The notes beneath the pieces are model-generated. The model did not search any database. It saw nothing but the letters and a program-made list of their open reading frames with translations, and was not told the origin of the DNA. From contig JAJDCD010000012.1 of assembly GCA_029261035.1 (NCBI GenBank), forward strand, positions 222,776 through 272,718: DNA of 49,943 nucleotides, given 5' to 3'. Source of the stretch: Candidatus Omnitrophota bacterium. GTDB taxonomy: Bacteria > Omnitrophota > Omnitrophia > Omnitrophales > JACROU01. Shown one piece after another: positions 6,130 through 49,943 of this stretch (its first letter is position 1; each line of letters begins with the position of its first letter). The translations under genes were made by a program, and so were the position numbers.

Positions 6130-6164
6130 TTCTGTTTTCAGACCTCAGACTTCTGACTTCAGGT
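6130..6164. repeat. Heptad array TTCnGnn x5, running into the oligopeptidase stop
   Basis: Five 7-nt units: TTCTGTT, TTCAGAC, CTCAGAC, TTCTGAC, TTCAGGT. The oligopeptidase stop codon (6145-6147) and its last codons (LKSEV) are made from this repeat, so the array has probably replaced or extended the original 3' end of that gene. Confidence 0.6.
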
Positions 6165-11662: not shown

Positions 11663-11690
11663 TAGCCATCAGCTTTTAGCTTTTAGCTAT
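11663..11690 (-). repeat. Four-unit heptad array just upstream of tatD
   Basis: Plus-strand units TAGCCAT, CAGCTTT, TAGCTTT, TAGCTAT, with AGC exactly every 7 nt. On the minus (sense) strand the array is followed by an AAAGGA ribosome binding site and the tatD ATG. The same arrangement precedes 41434, 47060 and 49798. Confidence 0.7.
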
Positions 11691-11732
11691 TTGTAAATCT
11701 TAAATCAACATTTCCCACAAAAAAAAGACTTA

Positions 11733-11761
11733 ATCCCAGTAAACGCATAAATAGGTACCAA
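11733..11761 (-). promoter_or_regulatory. Promoter-like pair in module copy A
   Basis: On the minus strand TTGGTA (11756-11761) is followed 17 nt later by TGGGAT (11733-11738) and then TAAG. Copies C and D have TTGTTA and TTGACA, again 17 nt before a GGGATAAAAG segment. The -10-like half is not a normal TATAAT. The conserved spacing between diverged sequences is the argument. Confidence 0.35.
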
Positions 11762-11769
11762 TAAAACGC

Positions 11770-11978
11770 GTTTCGTTATGAATAGCATAACGAAACACCC
11801 TAAACTCCAGAAAGAATATGGGCTCGATGCCCATCTTCTTTCAACGCCTCAACACCCAACAAGCGTTCATAACTTAAAGGAAAATATTGCATCCCCGCCG
11901 CGAGTTCACAAAAGGGACAGTCACCGTAGGTGACAGTCCCTTTTGTGCTGTCTGAGCGCCGGGGATGCAATATTTTCC
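11770..11978. repeat. Three-hairpin structured element, copy A
   Basis: H1 is GTTTCGTTATG/CATAACGAAAC (11770-11796). H2 (11810-11842) has arms GAAAGAA/TTCTTTC and TGGGC/GCCCA closing on loop TCGAT. H3 (11879-11978) has an 18-bp perfect outer stem, then GCCGC/GCGCC with a C-C mismatch, then the asymmetric loop GAGTT (11902-11906) opposite CTGTCTGA (11948-11955), then an inner stem. The inner stem tip carries the GTGAC/GTCAC palindrome. It starts 18 nt after the metG stop and is upstream of tatD. The coding strand of the element is uncertain. No protein-coding content; the 300-nt gap is almost filled by this module. Confidence 0.8.
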
Positions 11979-11996
11979 GAACAACAACCTAATCTT

Positions 11997-15570: not shown

Positions 15571-18423
15571 ATGAGCGAAGAGAAAAAGAAAAAATACAAC
15601 GTCAACTTACCCAAAACAAGCTTTCCAATGAAAGCTTCTCTATCTAGCCGTGAGCCTGAAAGATTGAAACTTTGGAGCAAAGAAGGTCTTGAAGAAAAGA
15701 TCAAAGAGAAATCTGATCAATCGGAAGGCAAATACATTCTTCACGACGGACCTCCCTACGCAAATGGAAAAATTCATATTGGTCACGCATTAAACAAAGT
15801 TTTAAAAGATATGATTGTTCGTTACCAATCACATAAAGGCCTCAAAACAACTTATGTTCCCGGTTGGGATTGTCACGGGCTTCCAATTGAACACGCTTTA
15901 TTAAAAGAACTCGGCCAAGACAAAAATGATGTCGATCAAATGGAATTTAGAAAAAAAGCAAAAAGCTACGCCAGTAAATTTGTTAAAACCCAAATGAAGG
16001 ATTTTCAACGCTTGGGCATTTTTGCTGAATGGAAAAACCCATACCTCACTATGGCCAAACACTACCAAGCCAGCATTGCTCGAAGTTTTTTTGAACTCTA
16101 CAACAAGGGTTATATTTATCGAGGGGAAAAACCCGTTTATTGGTCTATAGGTTGTGAAACCGCTCTTGCTGAAGCTGAGCTCGAATATCAGGACAAGACA
16201 TCAAAAGCAATTTTTGTACATTTCCCTATCGTAAACAATAATTTCCTAAAAGAACTAGGTCTCGATGAAGCAACATCTACATCCTTTATGATATGGACAA
16301 CAACACCCTGGACATTACCTGCCAATGTTGGTATTGCGATTCACCCAGATTTAGAATACGGAGTTTATAAAATTAATGATAATGAAGTAAGCATATTCTG
16401 TTCTGCATTAAAAAATCGCATAGAAGAAAAATTAGAGTTGCAAAATGTGGAGTGTTTAAAATCTTTGACTGGAAAAGAACTAAAACAACACATTGATGAA
16501 TATCAACATCCCTTCATCGATCGAGCTGGAAAAGTTATCGAAGCAGACTATGTTTCTGCTGAAGATGGTACCGGTATTGTCCATATAGCTCCCGGACATG
16601 GTGAAGACGACTATATCTTCGGTCACCTCAAAGCAGGTTTGGAAATTCTTTCTCCAGTAAATGCTAAAGGCCAGTTTTTAGAAGATTTCAATAAAGACTT
16701 AAAACTTAAAGGAATGAATGTTTTTGAAGCAAACACTCCTATCATCGAACACCTAAAGAGCAAAAAGTTACTCAAAAAAATCGAAGATCATCAACACTCT
16801 TACCCTTTTTGTTGGAGATCTAAAACACCCGTTATTGTACGCTCCACCCCACAATGGTTTCTAAAAGTAGATCACCAAGATTTAAGAAAGAAAGTTATTG
16901 ATGCCATTGAAGACAACTCCAAAACTTCTTGGTATCCGGACTGGGGTAAAAACAGAATCCTTAAAATGATAGAAACAAGACCAGACTGGTGTCTGTCTAG
17001 ACAACGTCTATGGGGTGTTCCAATTCCTATTGCTTATAAAAAAGATACGGATGAAGTTTATTATTCCGACTCTTTCAGAAACAAAGTTCTAGAGCTTTTC
17101 GAACAAGAAGGAGCCGACGCTTGGTTTTCTCACCCAAAAGAAGACTTCTTTGATGGGGACAAAACATTAGCAGAATCTCTTGAATTCGAAACCGATATTT
17201 TAGATGTTTGGTTTGATTCTGGAGTAAGCCATCAAGCAGTCTTAGAGACAGGTCACAAACTTGGTTTCCCTTGCGAGCTCTACTTAGAAGGCTCCGACCA
17301 ACACCGAGGTTGGTTTCAAACCTCTCTTATTACTTCTATGGCTTTACGAGGACAATCTCCGTTTAAAAATGTTCTTACTCATGGCTTTGTGGTAGATGGA
17401 CAAGGTAAAAAAATGTCTAAAAGTGAAGGGAATGTCGTAAGCCCTCAAGAAGTAATAGAAAAATTCGGGGCTGATGTTCTCCGCCTTTGGGTATCCTCTT
17501 GTGATACCAATAGTGATATCCGATTAAGCTCTGAAATTATTGACCGCATGGCTGAAGCCTACAGAAAAATAAGAAACACATTTAGATTCCTCCTTGGAAA
17601 CATTGCTGACTTTAACCCAGAAAAAGAAAATATCCCATTTGAGAAAATGCATTCCCTTGACCAATGGGTTTTAAGTCGTTTGAACCAGGTTTCAAAGGAA
17701 GTAACCGACTGTTATGAAAGTTTTAAATTTCATAAAATCTATCAAATCATTTATGACTTTTGCATTAGCGATCTCAGCTCTTTTTATTTAGATTCGTTGA
17801 AAGATAGAATGTACTGTTCTTCCCCTGATGACCCTTTAAGGAAATCATCGCAATCAGCCATGCACATCATTGCCAAAGCACTTTGCCAACTGCTCTCCCC
17901 AATACTTGTTTTTACAACGGATGAAATATGGAGAACAACCTTTGATGAGAATTCAAGCATCCACGAAAAGAACTGGGACACTTCTCTATGGGAAAATCAC
18001 TCAAAAGAAAATTTAAATCGTTGGAATACGATCCGTTCTATCCGAAGAAATAGCGACCTCGTCATTGAAAAATTAAGAGAAACCAAAGAAGTCGGAAGTT
18101 CTTTAGACTGCATTGTTCACATCGATTCTAAAATAAATGAAGAATTAAAGAAATTCACAGAAGATCTAGAACTTGGACTCATCGTATCCCAAGTCCAATA
18201 CGAAACAATAGAAACAGAAAATAAATTAGAATTTGATTTAGAATGGACCACCTCAGAAGATAAGCCCCGCTCGGACAAAGTAACCGTTTATATCTCAAAA
18301 GCGAGCGGAGAAAAATGCGGCCGCTGCTGGCGCTTCGACACCACCGTAGGCACCACAGACACCCCCGAACTCTGTGAACGCTGTACCACCGCAGAAAAAG
18401 TAGTTAGTTCTTTAAACTCATAG
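15571..18423 (+). CDS. ileS: Isoleucyl-tRNA synthetase
   Basis: A 950-residue class I synthetase charging tRNA-Ile, with an editing domain inserted between the halves of the catalytic domain. HIGH is at 69-72, KMSKSEGN near residue 614, and the editing-domain segment TTTPWTLPAN is present. The C-terminal zinc finger is intact: C916, C919, C935 and C938. It is the bacterial type with this finger. Co-transcribed with gmhB. Confidence 0.98.
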   Translation: MSEEKKKKYNVNLPKTSFPMKASLSSREPERLKLWSKEGLEEKIKEKSDQSEGKYILHDGPPYANGKIHIGHALNKVLKDMIVRYQSHKGLKTTYVPGWDCHGLPIEHALLKELGQDKNDVDQMEFRKKAKSYASKFVKTQMKDFQRLGIFAEWKNPYLTMAKHYQASIARSFFELYNKGYIYRGEKPVYWSIGCETALAEAELEYQDKTSKAIFVHFPIVNNNFLKELGLDEATSTSFMIWTTTPWTLPANVGIAIHPDLEYGVYKINDNEVSIFCSALKNRIEEKLELQNVECLKSLTGKELKQHIDEYQHPFIDRAGKVIEADYVSAEDGTGIVHIAPGHGEDDYIFGHLKAGLEILSPVNAKGQFLEDFNKDLKLKGMNVFEANTPIIEHLKSKKLLKKIEDHQHSYPFCWRSKTPVIVRSTPQWFLKVDHQDLRKKVIDAIEDNSKTSWYPDWGKNRILKMIETRPDWCLSRQRLWGVPIPIAYKKDTDEVYYSDSFRNKVLELFEQEGADAWFSHPKEDFFDGDKTLAESLEFETDILDVWFDSGVSHQAVLETGHKLGFPCELYLEGSDQHRGWFQTSLITSMALRGQSPFKNVLTHGFVVDGQGKKMSKSEGNVVSPQEVIEKFGADVLRLWVSSCDTNSDIRLSSEIIDRMAEAYRKIRNTFRFLLGNIADFNPEKENIPFEKMHSLDQWVLSRLNQVSKEVTDCYESFKFHKIYQIIYDFCISDLSSFYLDSLKDRMYCSSPDDPLRKSSQSAMHIIAKALCQLLSPILVFTTDEIWRTTFDENSSIHEKNWDTSLWENHSKENLNRWNTIRSIRRNSDLVIEKLRETKEVGSSLDCIVHIDSKINEELKKFTEDLELGLIVSQVQYETIETENKLEFDLEWTTSEDKPRSDKVTVYISKASGEKCGRCWRFDTTVGTTDTPELCERCTTAEKVVSSLNS

Positions 18424-18424
18424 C

Positions 18425-18531
18425 GACTGTCACCAGGCTGCGATCAGCAGACCATGGTGACTGTCACTATTATGCTAAAAGAAAAATGACAGTCACATTC
18501 AACGATCTTTATAAATCCGGGTGACAGTCAC
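18425..18531. repeat. Cluster of GTGACWGTCAC palindromes after ileS
   Basis: Three copies lie at 18457-18467 (GTGACTGTCAC), 18486-18496 (one mismatch) and 18521-18531 (GTGACAGTCAC). The first pairs with GACTGTCACCA at 18425-18435 to make a hairpin with an inner CTGC/GCAG stem, just after the ileS stop. It could act as a transcription end, but no T-run follows. Confidence 0.7.
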
Positions 18532-18581
18532 TTTTAAAACCAAACGCGCGAAGCGACTCCTCTCAACAAAGGATGTCTAAT

Positions 18582-18736
18582 AAAATAAACAGGAGCTCGA
18601 TGTTCCTGTTTATTTTCACCCTCAACACCCCACAAGCTTTTGCATTCAAAACAAATGGGTATCCTCCGCCGCGAGTTCACAAAAATTGATTTTTATTTTT
18701 GTGCTGTCTGAGCGCCGGAGGATACCCATTTGTTTT
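18582..18736. repeat. Structured element, copy B (H2 and H3 only)
   Basis: H2 (18582-18616) is a 15-bp stem around loop TCGAT, with a stem sequence unlike copies A, C and D. H3 (18648-18736) has a 20-bp perfect outer stem and again GCCGC, loop GAGTT, loop CTGTCTGA and GCGCC. The linker retains CAACACCCCACAAGC. H1, the promoter-like pair and the heptads are missing. It lies between convergent ileS and the flippase gene, 19 nt after the flippase stop. The 332-nt gap holds only this and the palindrome cluster. Confidence 0.8.
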
Positions 18737-18755
18737 ACAAACCCATCTTAAAACA

Positions 18756-41521: not shown

Positions 41522-41563
41522 TCACTTAATCCTAATTCTCATAACATAACAACGAATGCTTTT

Positions 41564-41592
41564 ATCCCAGAGCACCACAAAATAGCTAACAA
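41564..41592 (-). promoter_or_regulatory. Promoter-like pair in module copy C
   Basis: Minus-strand TTGTTA (41587-41592), 17 nt, then TGGGAT (41564-41569) followed by AAAAGC. It matches copies A and D in spacing and in the GGGATnAAAG core, and lies about 130 nt upstream of the GT39-like gene. Confidence 0.35.
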
Positions 41593-41601
41593 CAAAAATG
41601 C

Positions 41602-41796
41602 GTTTCGTTATTTAATTAATAACGAAACACCCTAAACCCCAGAAACAATATGGGCTCGACGCCCATCTTGTTTCAACCCCCTACACACCCCACAAGCGTT
41701 CATAACTTAAAAGAAAATGCTGCATCCCCGCCGCGAGTTCACAAAAATCGCATTTCAATTTTTGTACTGTCTGAGCGCCGGGGATGCAGCATTTTC
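41602..41796. repeat. Three-hairpin structured element, copy C
   Basis: H1 41602-41628 (GTTTCGTTATT/AATAACGAAAC). H2 41642-41674 with arms GAAACAA/TTGTTTC and TGGGC/GCCCA and loop TCGAC. H3 41713-41796: a 17-bp outer stem, then GAGTT opposite CTGTCTGA, then CACAAAAAT/ATTTTTGTA. It lies between divergent glycosyltransferase genes. On the minus strand H1 is followed by GCATTTTT, terminator-like. The 420-nt gap holds this module and the promoter of the plus-strand gene. Confidence 0.8.
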
Positions 41797-41839
41797 CAAA
41801 CAAACCAAACCATTTTCCCCTACCCCAACATAAACCTTC

Positions 41840-41854: not shown

Positions 41855-43447
41855 ATGAAAACAAGAACACACGCAGCAATTATATTCTCAATAGGCTTCT
41901 CTCTCTGGTTCTTCCTTATCCAGAACCTCCCATTCACTCTCGGAGACGACCTAAACGTAATCAGCTTCTCAATTCAAAAAAACTGGGCAACCCTAATAAA
42001 AGCATTCCTCAATCCGCTGACTCCAGCCCTCTATGTCCACGGAGAAATCAGCTTAGAAACCACAAGAACCTTACAACCCATCCTCTTTAAGCTCTGCCAT
42101 CAAATCTTCGGTTACTCCGCGCCCGCATTTGATATGATCAAAATCATTGGCATGGCCCTTACTGGCACTTTTGTTTTCTTATGGATACAAAAACTTAACA
42201 AAAACACATTCATTTCCTATTTAGGAACACTCATCTTCTTAACAGCAGCTCCCCTTTACCGAGGCGTTAATTGGATTGCCGACCTAGATATCTTAGCCCA
42301 ATGGGGCACAATCGCTGCAAGCTATTTATTCATAAGCTATTATATATCGAGTACTGAAAATTCAAACAGAAATAAACAGAGCACTTCCCGCTTTATATAC
42401 ACTCTACTAGGGATTATCTGCTTTTATTGGATTGGAATGAAACTAAAAGAAACAGGACGCCTCTTTCCTCTCATTGCTCTATGCTTTATTCTCGTAGATC
42501 AGAACGTTCGACTCTTTAGCTGGTTCAAGTCTTCAAAAAAGAATTTGGCTCTTTTTAGTGCCGTTTCTCTACTCATCTTTACTGTAATCCCAGTATCAAC
42601 ACAACATACCGTCATAGATGAAAGAGCCAGCTCCGTCACCTCAGCATTTCAAATTAACAATATCCCTTATGCTCTTTGGAACAACCCTCTGAGTAACCAT
42701 ATTCCTTCCGATCTAGCTTCAATGCTTTTCTGGGGACTCTTTTTACTTACGCCTATTTTATTCTTATTTATTTTCATTCAATGGCTCCGAAAGAAATTAG
42801 CCCGAAACCATTTCCAACTGATATTATTCACTTTAATTTGGAGCTCAGCTGCATTGTGCGCACTTTGCCTTGGCTTTCACCTAACTGAGAACGAACGTTA
42901 TCTATCAACACTCATCGTTCCCTTCATTCTATTTTTATTTCTTTTAATTAGCTCCACATCATCATTTTTATCAAAAAAAGCTAAAACCCTTTTTCTTTTG
43001 ACTATCTTTATACTTTCTGTAATTCCCATTCAAAGAAACATAGACTCTATTGTTTTCATCAAAAAACTGTATGACAATCGAAATATTGCAGATTGGAAAG
43101 GAACACAAATTATATTCGAGGATCTTTACAATAAAGAAGCCACTGCAGAAAATTTAGTCGATTTCTATCAAGGAAATCCTCCCTACTCCAAAAAACTCTT
43201 TCATGAATCCAGAGTCAAGCAATGGGATAGCTCTGTGGCTTCAGACATAAATACGGTAAGAAAAATTGCAAAGGATTGGGGTTCGGCTTTCGTTATTTCG
43301 TTTGATAAGAACCTCTACACCAATGAAAACGATGTAACCTTAATCAAAGAATCCGACACTCGAATTGGCAGTCTATACACCACACTCATGCCTCTAATTA
43401 AAAAGAAAAGTCTGCAGAAGTTTTACGTTTACAGAATCACTAGCTAA
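41855..43447 (+). CDS. Polytopic GT-C-like membrane protein
   Basis: A 530-residue protein with an N-terminal membrane helix and about ten hydrophobic segments. LPFTLGDDLNVISFSIQ near residue 25 has the acidic pair in the first periplasmic loop, as in GT-C glycosyltransferases. YRGVNWIADLDILAQWG near 135 could be the second loop. A small soluble tail follows from about residue 405. No close family is recognised. It is the only plus-strand gene in the cluster. The next ATG in frame is about 90 codons in, so the leaderless start is the best available. Confidence 0.65.
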   Translation: MKTRTHAAIIFSIGFSLWFFLIQNLPFTLGDDLNVISFSIQKNWATLIKAFLNPLTPALYVHGEISLETTRTLQPILFKLCHQIFGYSAPAFDMIKIIGMALTGTFVFLWIQKLNKNTFISYLGTLIFLTAAPLYRGVNWIADLDILAQWGTIAASYLFISYYISSTENSNRNKQSTSRFIYTLLGIICFYWIGMKLKETGRLFPLIALCFILVDQNVRLFSWFKSSKKNLALFSAVSLLIFTVIPVSTQHTVIDERASSVTSAFQINNIPYALWNNPLSNHIPSDLASMLFWGLFLLTPILFLFIFIQWLRKKLARNHFQLILFTLIWSSAALCALCLGFHLTENERYLSTLIVPFILFLFLLISSTSSFLSKKAKTLFLLTIFILSVIPIQRNIDSIVFIKKLYDNRNIADWKGTQIIFEDLYNKEATAENLVDFYQGNPPYSKKLFHESRVKQWDSSVASDINTVRKIAKDWGSAFVISFDKNLYTNENDVTLIKESDTRIGSLYTTLMPLIKKKSLQKFYVYRITS

Positions 43448-44988: not shown

Positions 44989-44997
44989 GAGAACCTC

Positions 44998-45071
44998 TGA
45001 AGTCAGAAGTCGGAAGTCAGACAACAGAAAAAAGCTATTTCTGACTTCTGTCGTCTGACCTCTGTCTTCAG
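44998..45071 (-). repeat. Inverted heptad arrays (AAGTC / TCTGnC) after eno
   Basis: Left half 44998-45026 has GAAGTCA, GAAGTCG, GAAGTCA, GACAACA. Right half 45040-45071 has TCTGACT, TCTGTCG, TCTGACC, TCTGTCT, TCAG. They are inverted and would form a long hairpin starting 4 nt after the eno stop, so possibly a transcription end for eno. The left half lies just before the ATG of the ftsB-like duplicate. Confidence 0.65.
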
Positions 45072-47078: not shown

Positions 47079-47106
47079 TAGCGGATAGCGCATAGCGTTT
47101 AGCGGA
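47079..47106 (-). repeat. Four-unit heptad array just upstream of purN
   Basis: Plus-strand units TAGCGGA, TAGCGCA, TAGCGTT, TAGCGGA, ending 19 nt before the purN ATG. The first three units are identical to those at 49818. Confidence 0.75.
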
Positions 47107-47151
47107 TAGTATAAATCCTATTTCTATATCAACACCACCACCAACGCTTTT

Positions 47152-47180
47152 ATCCCTTAACTTACATAACTTCATGTCAA
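47152..47180 (-). promoter_or_regulatory. Promoter-like pair in module copy D
   Basis: Minus-strand TTGACA (47175-47180), a perfect -35, then 17 nt, then AGGGAT (47152-47157) and AAAAGC. Same spacing as copies A and C. About 92 nt before the purN start. Confidence 0.4.
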
Positions 47181-47190
47181 TAATATAAGC

Positions 47191-47379
47191 GTTTCGTTAT
47201 TTAGACAAATAACGAAACACGATAAACCCAGGCAATAAAAGTGCTCGATGTACTTTTGTTGCCAACCCTCTTCATCCCCACTAGTTTTTACAACTTTCAA
47301 GGAAAACAGTGTGCCCTCGCCGCGAGTTGCGCAGGCCAAAGGCCGAGCATGTCTGAGCGCCGAGGGCACACTGTTTTCC
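47191..47379. repeat. Three-hairpin structured element, copy D
   Basis: H1 47191-47218 (GTTTCGTTATTT/AAATAACGAAAC). H2 47231-47263: a 14-bp stem with two G-T pairs and loop TCGAT. H3 47301-47379: a 19-bp perfect outer stem of new sequence, GCCGC/GCGCC, loop GAGTT opposite ATGTCTGA, and a GC-rich inner stem GGCC-AAA-GGCC. The inner stem differs fully from the other copies while the internal loop stays. It lies 33 nt after the rsmI stop. The 350-nt gap is filled by the module. Confidence 0.8.
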
Positions 47380-47412
47380 GAACAACCACTATTTTTAATT
47401 ACGCCATTAAAT

Positions 47413-49817: not shown

Positions 49818-49943
49818 TAGCGGATAGCGCATAGCGTTTAGCGTTTAGGGCCTTTTGTCTTAAAAACTATCTTCTTCCTACAAAGGAAGCTGATAAAATA
49901 CAGACATTTGGATTCCTATACGCTCCACGCTAAACGCTCTACG
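49818..49943 (-). repeat. Inverted heptad arrays upstream of atpD
   Basis: The left array 49818-49845 is TAGCGGA, TAGCGCA, TAGCGTT, TAGCGTT, ending 20 nt before atpD. The window's last bases (from about 49914) carry the inverted version with GCGTTTAGCG-type units. The two could pair over a loop of about 70 nt. No gene is seen in this 145-nt end of the window. Confidence 0.65.

Follow-up and report, generated by a model that had tools for sequence, protein, structure and literature searches.

An uncatalogued DNA hairpin family just behind genes in several unrelated bacterial phyla

Three intergenic gaps in a 49,943 nt stretch of a Candidatus Omnitrophota genome (hereafter the window) carry the same parts between unrelated genes, which raises the question of what this array is, where it ends and how it came to lie at these junctions. 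The initial annotation had described three minus-strand hairpins (H3, H2 and H1) followed by a promoter-like pair, a spacer, four heptads, a ribosome binding site and the start codon of the next gene, and had read the whole as a portable regulatory or mobile cassette of no known family.

Two covariance models were used, R1 for H3 and R2 for the section H2-H1-tail. R1 matched the three gaps at 11876–11981, 41709–41800 and 47298–47382 and R2 matched them at 11694–11852, 41526–41684 and 47112–47272, which confirms that all three share one minus-strand arrangement (H3, linker, H2, H1, tail). The E-values of these matches (4e-22 to 2e-29) are not independent as some of the copies were in the training sets. 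Independent backing for a shared module came from a blastn search with copy A alone, which returned 46 matches in the genome, and from covariation among 26 H3 sequences (paired cells 98.2% compared with 72.9% after shuffling; score 0.64 compared with 0.165). The module H3-H2-H1-tail is approximately 290 nt long and ends in TTTAGGATTTA. Across the family, the loop of H2 is ATCGA, H1 is GTTTCGTTAT/ATAACGAAAC and the tail carries GGGATAAAGGC. The copies in the window are as follows.

11694–11981, minus strand: module copy A at the metG-tatD junction, with H3, linker, H2, H1 and tail to TTTAAGATTTA
11879–11978, minus strand: H3 of copy A, with a 23-bp outer stem, the conserved core GGCGCTCAGACA / GAACTCGCGGC and a tip with a GTGACTGTCACC-type palindrome
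11810–11842, minus strand: H2 of copy A, stem GAAAGAAGATGGGC / GCCCATATTCTTTC, loop ATCGA
11770–11796, minus strand: H1 of copy A, palindrome GTTTCGTTAT / ATAACGAAAC
11694–11769, minus strand: tail of copy A, with a degenerate GGGATTAAGTC at 11727–11737 and the conserved end TTTAAGATTTA
41526–41800, minus strand: module copy B, preceding a PMT_2/GT39-like gene; the other neighbouring gene is divergent
41709–41800, minus strand: H3 of copy B
47112–47382, minus strand: module copy C, at the junction of an rsmI-like (tetrapyrrole-methylase-family) gene and purN
47298–47382, minus strand: H3 of copy C, with the short tip TGCTCGGCCTTTGGCCTGCGCA
18647–18737, minus strand: fourth H3, approximately 19 nt after the stop codon of a co-oriented polysaccharide-synthesis gene
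18582–18616, minus strand: H2 of the fourth copy, with GAGTCGCTTCGCGCG and GTGACTGTCACC-type repeats in place of H1 and tail (mosaic)

All three copies first described are real, and the fourth, a decayed copy at 18582–18737, had been overlooked. The spacer motif that had been read as GCTTTTATCCC is GGGATAAAAGC; copies B and C have it, copy A has a degenerate form, and its consensus across the family is CAGGGATAAAGGC. Conservation of the module runs to TTTAGGATTTA and no further, and heptads followed just four of the 19 tails examined, so the heptads belong to the context, as do the ribosome binding site and the start codon, which are the next gene's own. Other sequence after tails included further repeats, for example GGTATCGTCACATGTGTGACGATGG or GATCCGCTATAA..GCGGATTCGC. 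The promoter-like pair is putative: the tail is conserved, yet its consensus has no clear -35/-10 pair. A regulatory cassette with promoter, heptads and start codon, as initially described, is not supported, since heptads and start codon lie beyond the conserved unit. Arrays of the heptad TAGCGGATAGCGCATAGCG (47079–47109 and 49818–49848 in the window) were found both with and without the module.

Further repeats were observed in and around these copies. Palindromes of the GTGACTGTCACC type, at 18420–18534 and 1255–1272 of the window and in H3 tips, were dispersed in this genome (G000) and in its relative G002 and are probably another repeat family. The palindrome GTATCGTCACATGTGTGACGAT lay after the tail in L010, L017, L020, L021 and L050 and took the place of H1 and tail in L022, L027 and L038, which indicates that units are exchanged. 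An inverted repeat pair of the CTGAAGTCAGAAGTC type, at 6130–6162 and 44997–45029, is a further dispersed repeat. Divergent from copy B, a 530-aa open frame (41855–43447) showed no Pfam match and atypical codon usage.

Within the 2.7 Mb of G000 the module occurs approximately 40 times, about 35 of these as full copies. A genome-wide search with the covariance models returned 61 R1 and 41 R2 matches, adjoining unrelated genes, rather than the three copies alone; the R1 count takes in partial and opposite-strand matches of one hairpin, and separate H3 sites number nearer 53. R2 was found in none of the 46 other genomes of the order. At two of the junctions the relatives show what the module divides. 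In G001 and G002, which belong to the same family as G000, metG ends in an overlap with tatD, and the other relatives in which both were found have these two genes overlapping or almost touching; the rsmI-like gene and purN overlap in G001. The corresponding gaps in G000 measure 327 nt and 352 nt and each contains a module. Judged by this comparison, the modules have been inserted between genes whose ends overlap in close relatives, and the wide distribution beside unrelated genes, the absence of R2 from the relatives and the two split pairs support the earlier description of a portable or mobile element well. The G000 copies are only approximately 70–88% alike, so their amplification is not recent. 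Neither a target-site duplication nor a clean single-event insertion was made out among the relatives compared, because these differ at genus level. IS-derived MITEs have the terminal inverted repeats of a known IS and a target duplication; inspected by eye, the module ends showed no terminal inverted repeat. The analysis turned up no mobilising enzyme. The rsmI-purN junction of G002 (L416, 1280–1520) contained another long inverted repeat, TGTCATGCCAGCG.., which means that this junction has been entered by two unrelated palindromic elements.

The distribution of H3 was much broader than that of the rest of the module. R1 gave matches in eight genomes of the order (47 searched) and in 18 at the level of the phylum (384 searched). 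The H3 core is GGCGCTCRRACA-tip-AACTCGCGGCG, and the exact pattern GGCGCTCRRACA-N15..45-AACTCGCGGCG, for which approximately one chance match was expected by our own estimate, was searched in named genomes. It was present in more than 107 stretches, mostly from Olsenella and its kin (Coriobacteriia), followed by Omnitrophota and Eisenbacteria, with single records in Planctomycetota and Gemmatimonadetes. Three matches (L144, L174 and L205) had no arms and are probably due to chance. With G000 excluded, genomes contained up to 23 H3 copies. H3 is an older and much wider family, to which H2-H1-tail is a lineage-specific addition. Rfam matched the window only at a tRNA, and H3 scored nowhere near the gathering cut-offs; the H3 core was absent from viral contigs, and searching the literature for its letters brought up nothing beyond chance matches, primers for instance. 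The permuted core GAACTCGC-loop-GCGCTCRRACA was dropped as it had 15 IMG/VR matches against approximately 14 expected by a rough chance estimate. Additionally, long hairpins in Coriobacteriia (L155, L122 and L186) had the variant core GTGCTCAAACAG..GAACTGCGCGCGG and are perhaps a subfamily.

The position of H3 relative to genes was established with our own simple gene caller rather than from annotation. Across the groups H3 usually lay 5–35 nt from a stop codon. A co-oriented gene was upstream at 45 of the 51 G000 sites with called genes on both sides, most of the co-oriented stop codons being 6–37 nt ahead of H3, and among 41 same-strand contexts H3 had the direction of both flanking genes in 39 and the opposite direction in two (p 8e-10). 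The Coriobacteriia sites were typically 5–25 nt from the stop codon in either orientation (16 versus 14), and 17 of 68 were inside called frames that are probably antisense miscalls in GC-rich DNA. An intrinsic terminator has a GC-rich stem with a T run directly behind it. The 8 nt following the 3′ arm were 46% T in G000 and 19% T in Coriobacteriia, and five or more T in these 8 nt were seen after 13 of 38 hairpins in G000, one of 14 in other Omnitrophota and two of 54 in Coriobacteriia.

These data bear on a less probable alternative, in which the module is an intergenic cassette with a function: H3 would terminate the transcript coming from upstream, and transcription of the next gene would begin in the tail behind H1. 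The direction bias in G000, a location where terminators are found, the T-rich sequence after the 3′ arms and the conserved motifs of H1 and tail are all consistent with such a role, and the splitting of an overlapping gene pair would require a new promoter. However, the Coriobacteriia hairpins lack T-rich tails and have no preferred orientation, the gene downstream of H3 is on the opposite strand at eight of 53 sites in G000, and the tail is without a clear promoter consensus. A cassette of this kind would also account for the retention of copies but not for their spread.

Comparison of orthologous Coriobacteriia sites revealed the H3 core to be present, absent, flipped, paired or nested, a turnover, whether by gain or by loss, that was read from simple sequence comparison. 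The core at site s3 was forward in three species and reversed in three; three others had it as inverted pairs, and several lacked it. Flips distinguished L369, L373 and L374 from L370 and L371, and inverted H3 pairs were present in L372, L377 and L378. At site s1 in L360, a reversed H3 was nested in the tip of another H3 such that the outer tip stem ran into the inner arms. L384 encoded a long hairpin with partly similar arms and another loop in place of the core, and L393 had mismatched arms of two different kinds. A long perfect hairpin with the loop TTCGTAC..TTAACAA was observed in L384 and L339 where a relative has H3; the second apical core hinted at by L384 was, among the loci compared, found at that site only.

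The arms of H3 are 15–25 bp, vary between copies and are approximately 94% complementary; the median arm length was 19–23 bp, and the hairpin spanned 85–106 nt in most G000 copies. Complementary arms, for which the core pattern itself made no demand, were present at 102 of 113 core-pattern sites compared with 10.5% when arms were shuffled among sites, and the 26 H3 sequences showed two-sided changes in 18 outer pairs. Structured RNAs tolerate G.U pairs far more than A.C pairs. In 166 hairpins, selected for 11 or more Watson-Crick pairs out of 14, a rule that is neutral between the two, the non-Watson-Crick pairs were 41 G.U and 56 A.C by core strand (binomial p 0.15) and 31 G.U and 26 A.C when the strand was taken as the direction of the nearest gene end. 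That G.U was no commoner than A.C, in a comparison confined to H3 hairpins, indicates that the pairing is maintained at the DNA level. We consider it improbable, then, that H3 is a structured RNA, such as a 3′ UTR element that is bound as RNA via its internal loop and whose stems are preserved by compensatory mutation. Its asymmetric internal loop is conserved, its stems fully covary and it follows genes in the sense orientation in G000, all as such an RNA would; but G.U was not preferred on either strand, the orientation of the core at one site differs among species and Rfam has no match.

The upkeep of H3 pairing is probably due to template switching, which is known to homogenise the arms of inverted repeats and to invert their spacers (PMC8604942) and which fits the complementary arms and the flipped cores alike. 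The quasipalindromes described there have spacers of a few bases and are in yeast genes, whereas in H3 a conserved core of 45–60 nt is flipped, and this core recurs across phyla. Arms of one lineage have loose motifs in common (GGCGAGAAGGTCC and GGAAAAT..TTCCC), so they are not purely arbitrary.

Among known elements H3 most invites comparison with REPs and REPINs, as it is short, palindromic, non-coding, dispersed and intergenic, often occurs in inverted pairs and has no ORF. REPs have a stem of 5–13 bp in an element of 20–40 bp, and some sit within longer palindromes (PMC3733652), which gives the layout of H3 a precedent. Unlike a REP, with its short stem and an unpaired GTAG or CGTC tag as a head at one end of the stem-loop, H3 has hypervariable arms of 15–25 bp around an internal core that is conserved, and its tip varies. 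Within 7 nt of the arm end, GTAG-type tags occurred at 0.03–0.08 and CGTC-type tags at 0.08–0.14 against a background of 0.04–0.11, CGTC/TGTC being slightly above background in G000 (0.11 versus 0.04, 35 hairpins). H3 is outside the GTAG/CGTC superfamilies by tag, stem length and transposase link, and that it is not a known family holds as far as tested against Rfam and beside the Y1 transposase genes examined. Movement of H3 as a GTAG/CGTC-superfamily REP by a RAYT (Y1 transposase) is quite unlikely: H3 is palindromic, intergenic, behind stop codons and found in head-to-head inverted pairs, G000 has Y1 genes and its H3 tips bear GTGACTGTCACC palindromes that are also dispersed elsewhere, but the heads are not clearly above background, none of 13 Y1 loci has H3 nearby, and G385 and G386 contain 13 and 7 H3 respectively with no Y1 match. 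In REPIN/RAYT systems the Y1 transposase gene has an inverted copy on either side, an arrangement not seen with H3 at these 13 loci. An autonomous transposon with H3 ends was also rejected, as the genes inside the 3.3-kb inverted H3 pairs of G386 are ordinary ones (purA-like and purE-like; peptidase-like) and the pairs were taken as a coincidence.

As a composite of palindromic units and linkers in many intergenic copies, the module resembles a BIME, and units have been swapped or lost among its copies (window 18454–18737; L022, L027, L037 and L038). It differs in that H3, H2 and H1 have a fixed single direction in G000, whereas the REPs of BIMEs alternate, and in that H3 lacks REP tags. H3 also has what we take to be features of integron attC sites, namely hairpins with variable tips, unpaired central parts and conserved structure. 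No RYYYAAC/GTTRRRY base boxes were seen by eye in the H3 copies examined, and H3, in contrast to attC, is without cassette arrays.

We conclude that the module is probably a lineage-specific composite of non-coding palindromic units, a mosaic insertion family of the REP/BIME-like kind, with the REP-like, multi-phylum H3 as its founder. The precedent for its layout and its REP/BIME-like behaviour would make H3 a variant of that kind which is itself uncatalogued. H3 would spread as a DNA hairpin whose internal core is the part recognised by a putative enzyme. Template switching between the arms during replication, together with recombination between copies at the shared core, would generate the complementarity of the arms and the flipping of the core. 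In G000, H3 would have been combined with H2, H1 and tail, and the resulting composite copied to gene junctions. Surviving insertions would be those harmless to the flanking genes, which would place H3 right behind stop codons; that some sites are kept across species may, on the other hand, reflect selection for a function. The composite might in addition act directionally on transcription, for instance by terminating the transcript from upstream and giving the next gene a fresh start, and if so this would explain the 39 to 2 bias in G000. A bolder proposal, for which we see a limited chance, is that H3 represents a cross-phylum class of mobile DNA hairpins that are recognised by their internal core, enter hairpin loops and gene ends, flip and nest within themselves, and are moved by a non-RAYT transposition enzyme new to science.

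H3 is an uncatalogued family of DNA hairpins that follow closely on genes in a number of unrelated bacterial phyla. If its core is mobile, it would be a REP-like element in at least three and probably five phyla, a spread that goes with no detected RAYT, REP tag or Rfam entry. As its arms evolve in a complementary manner with no RNA strand signature, they would be a natural record of template switching, and the case cautions that covariation by itself is no proof of a structured RNA. In G000 the composite separates genes that lie directly together in relatives and may thus alter operon structure.
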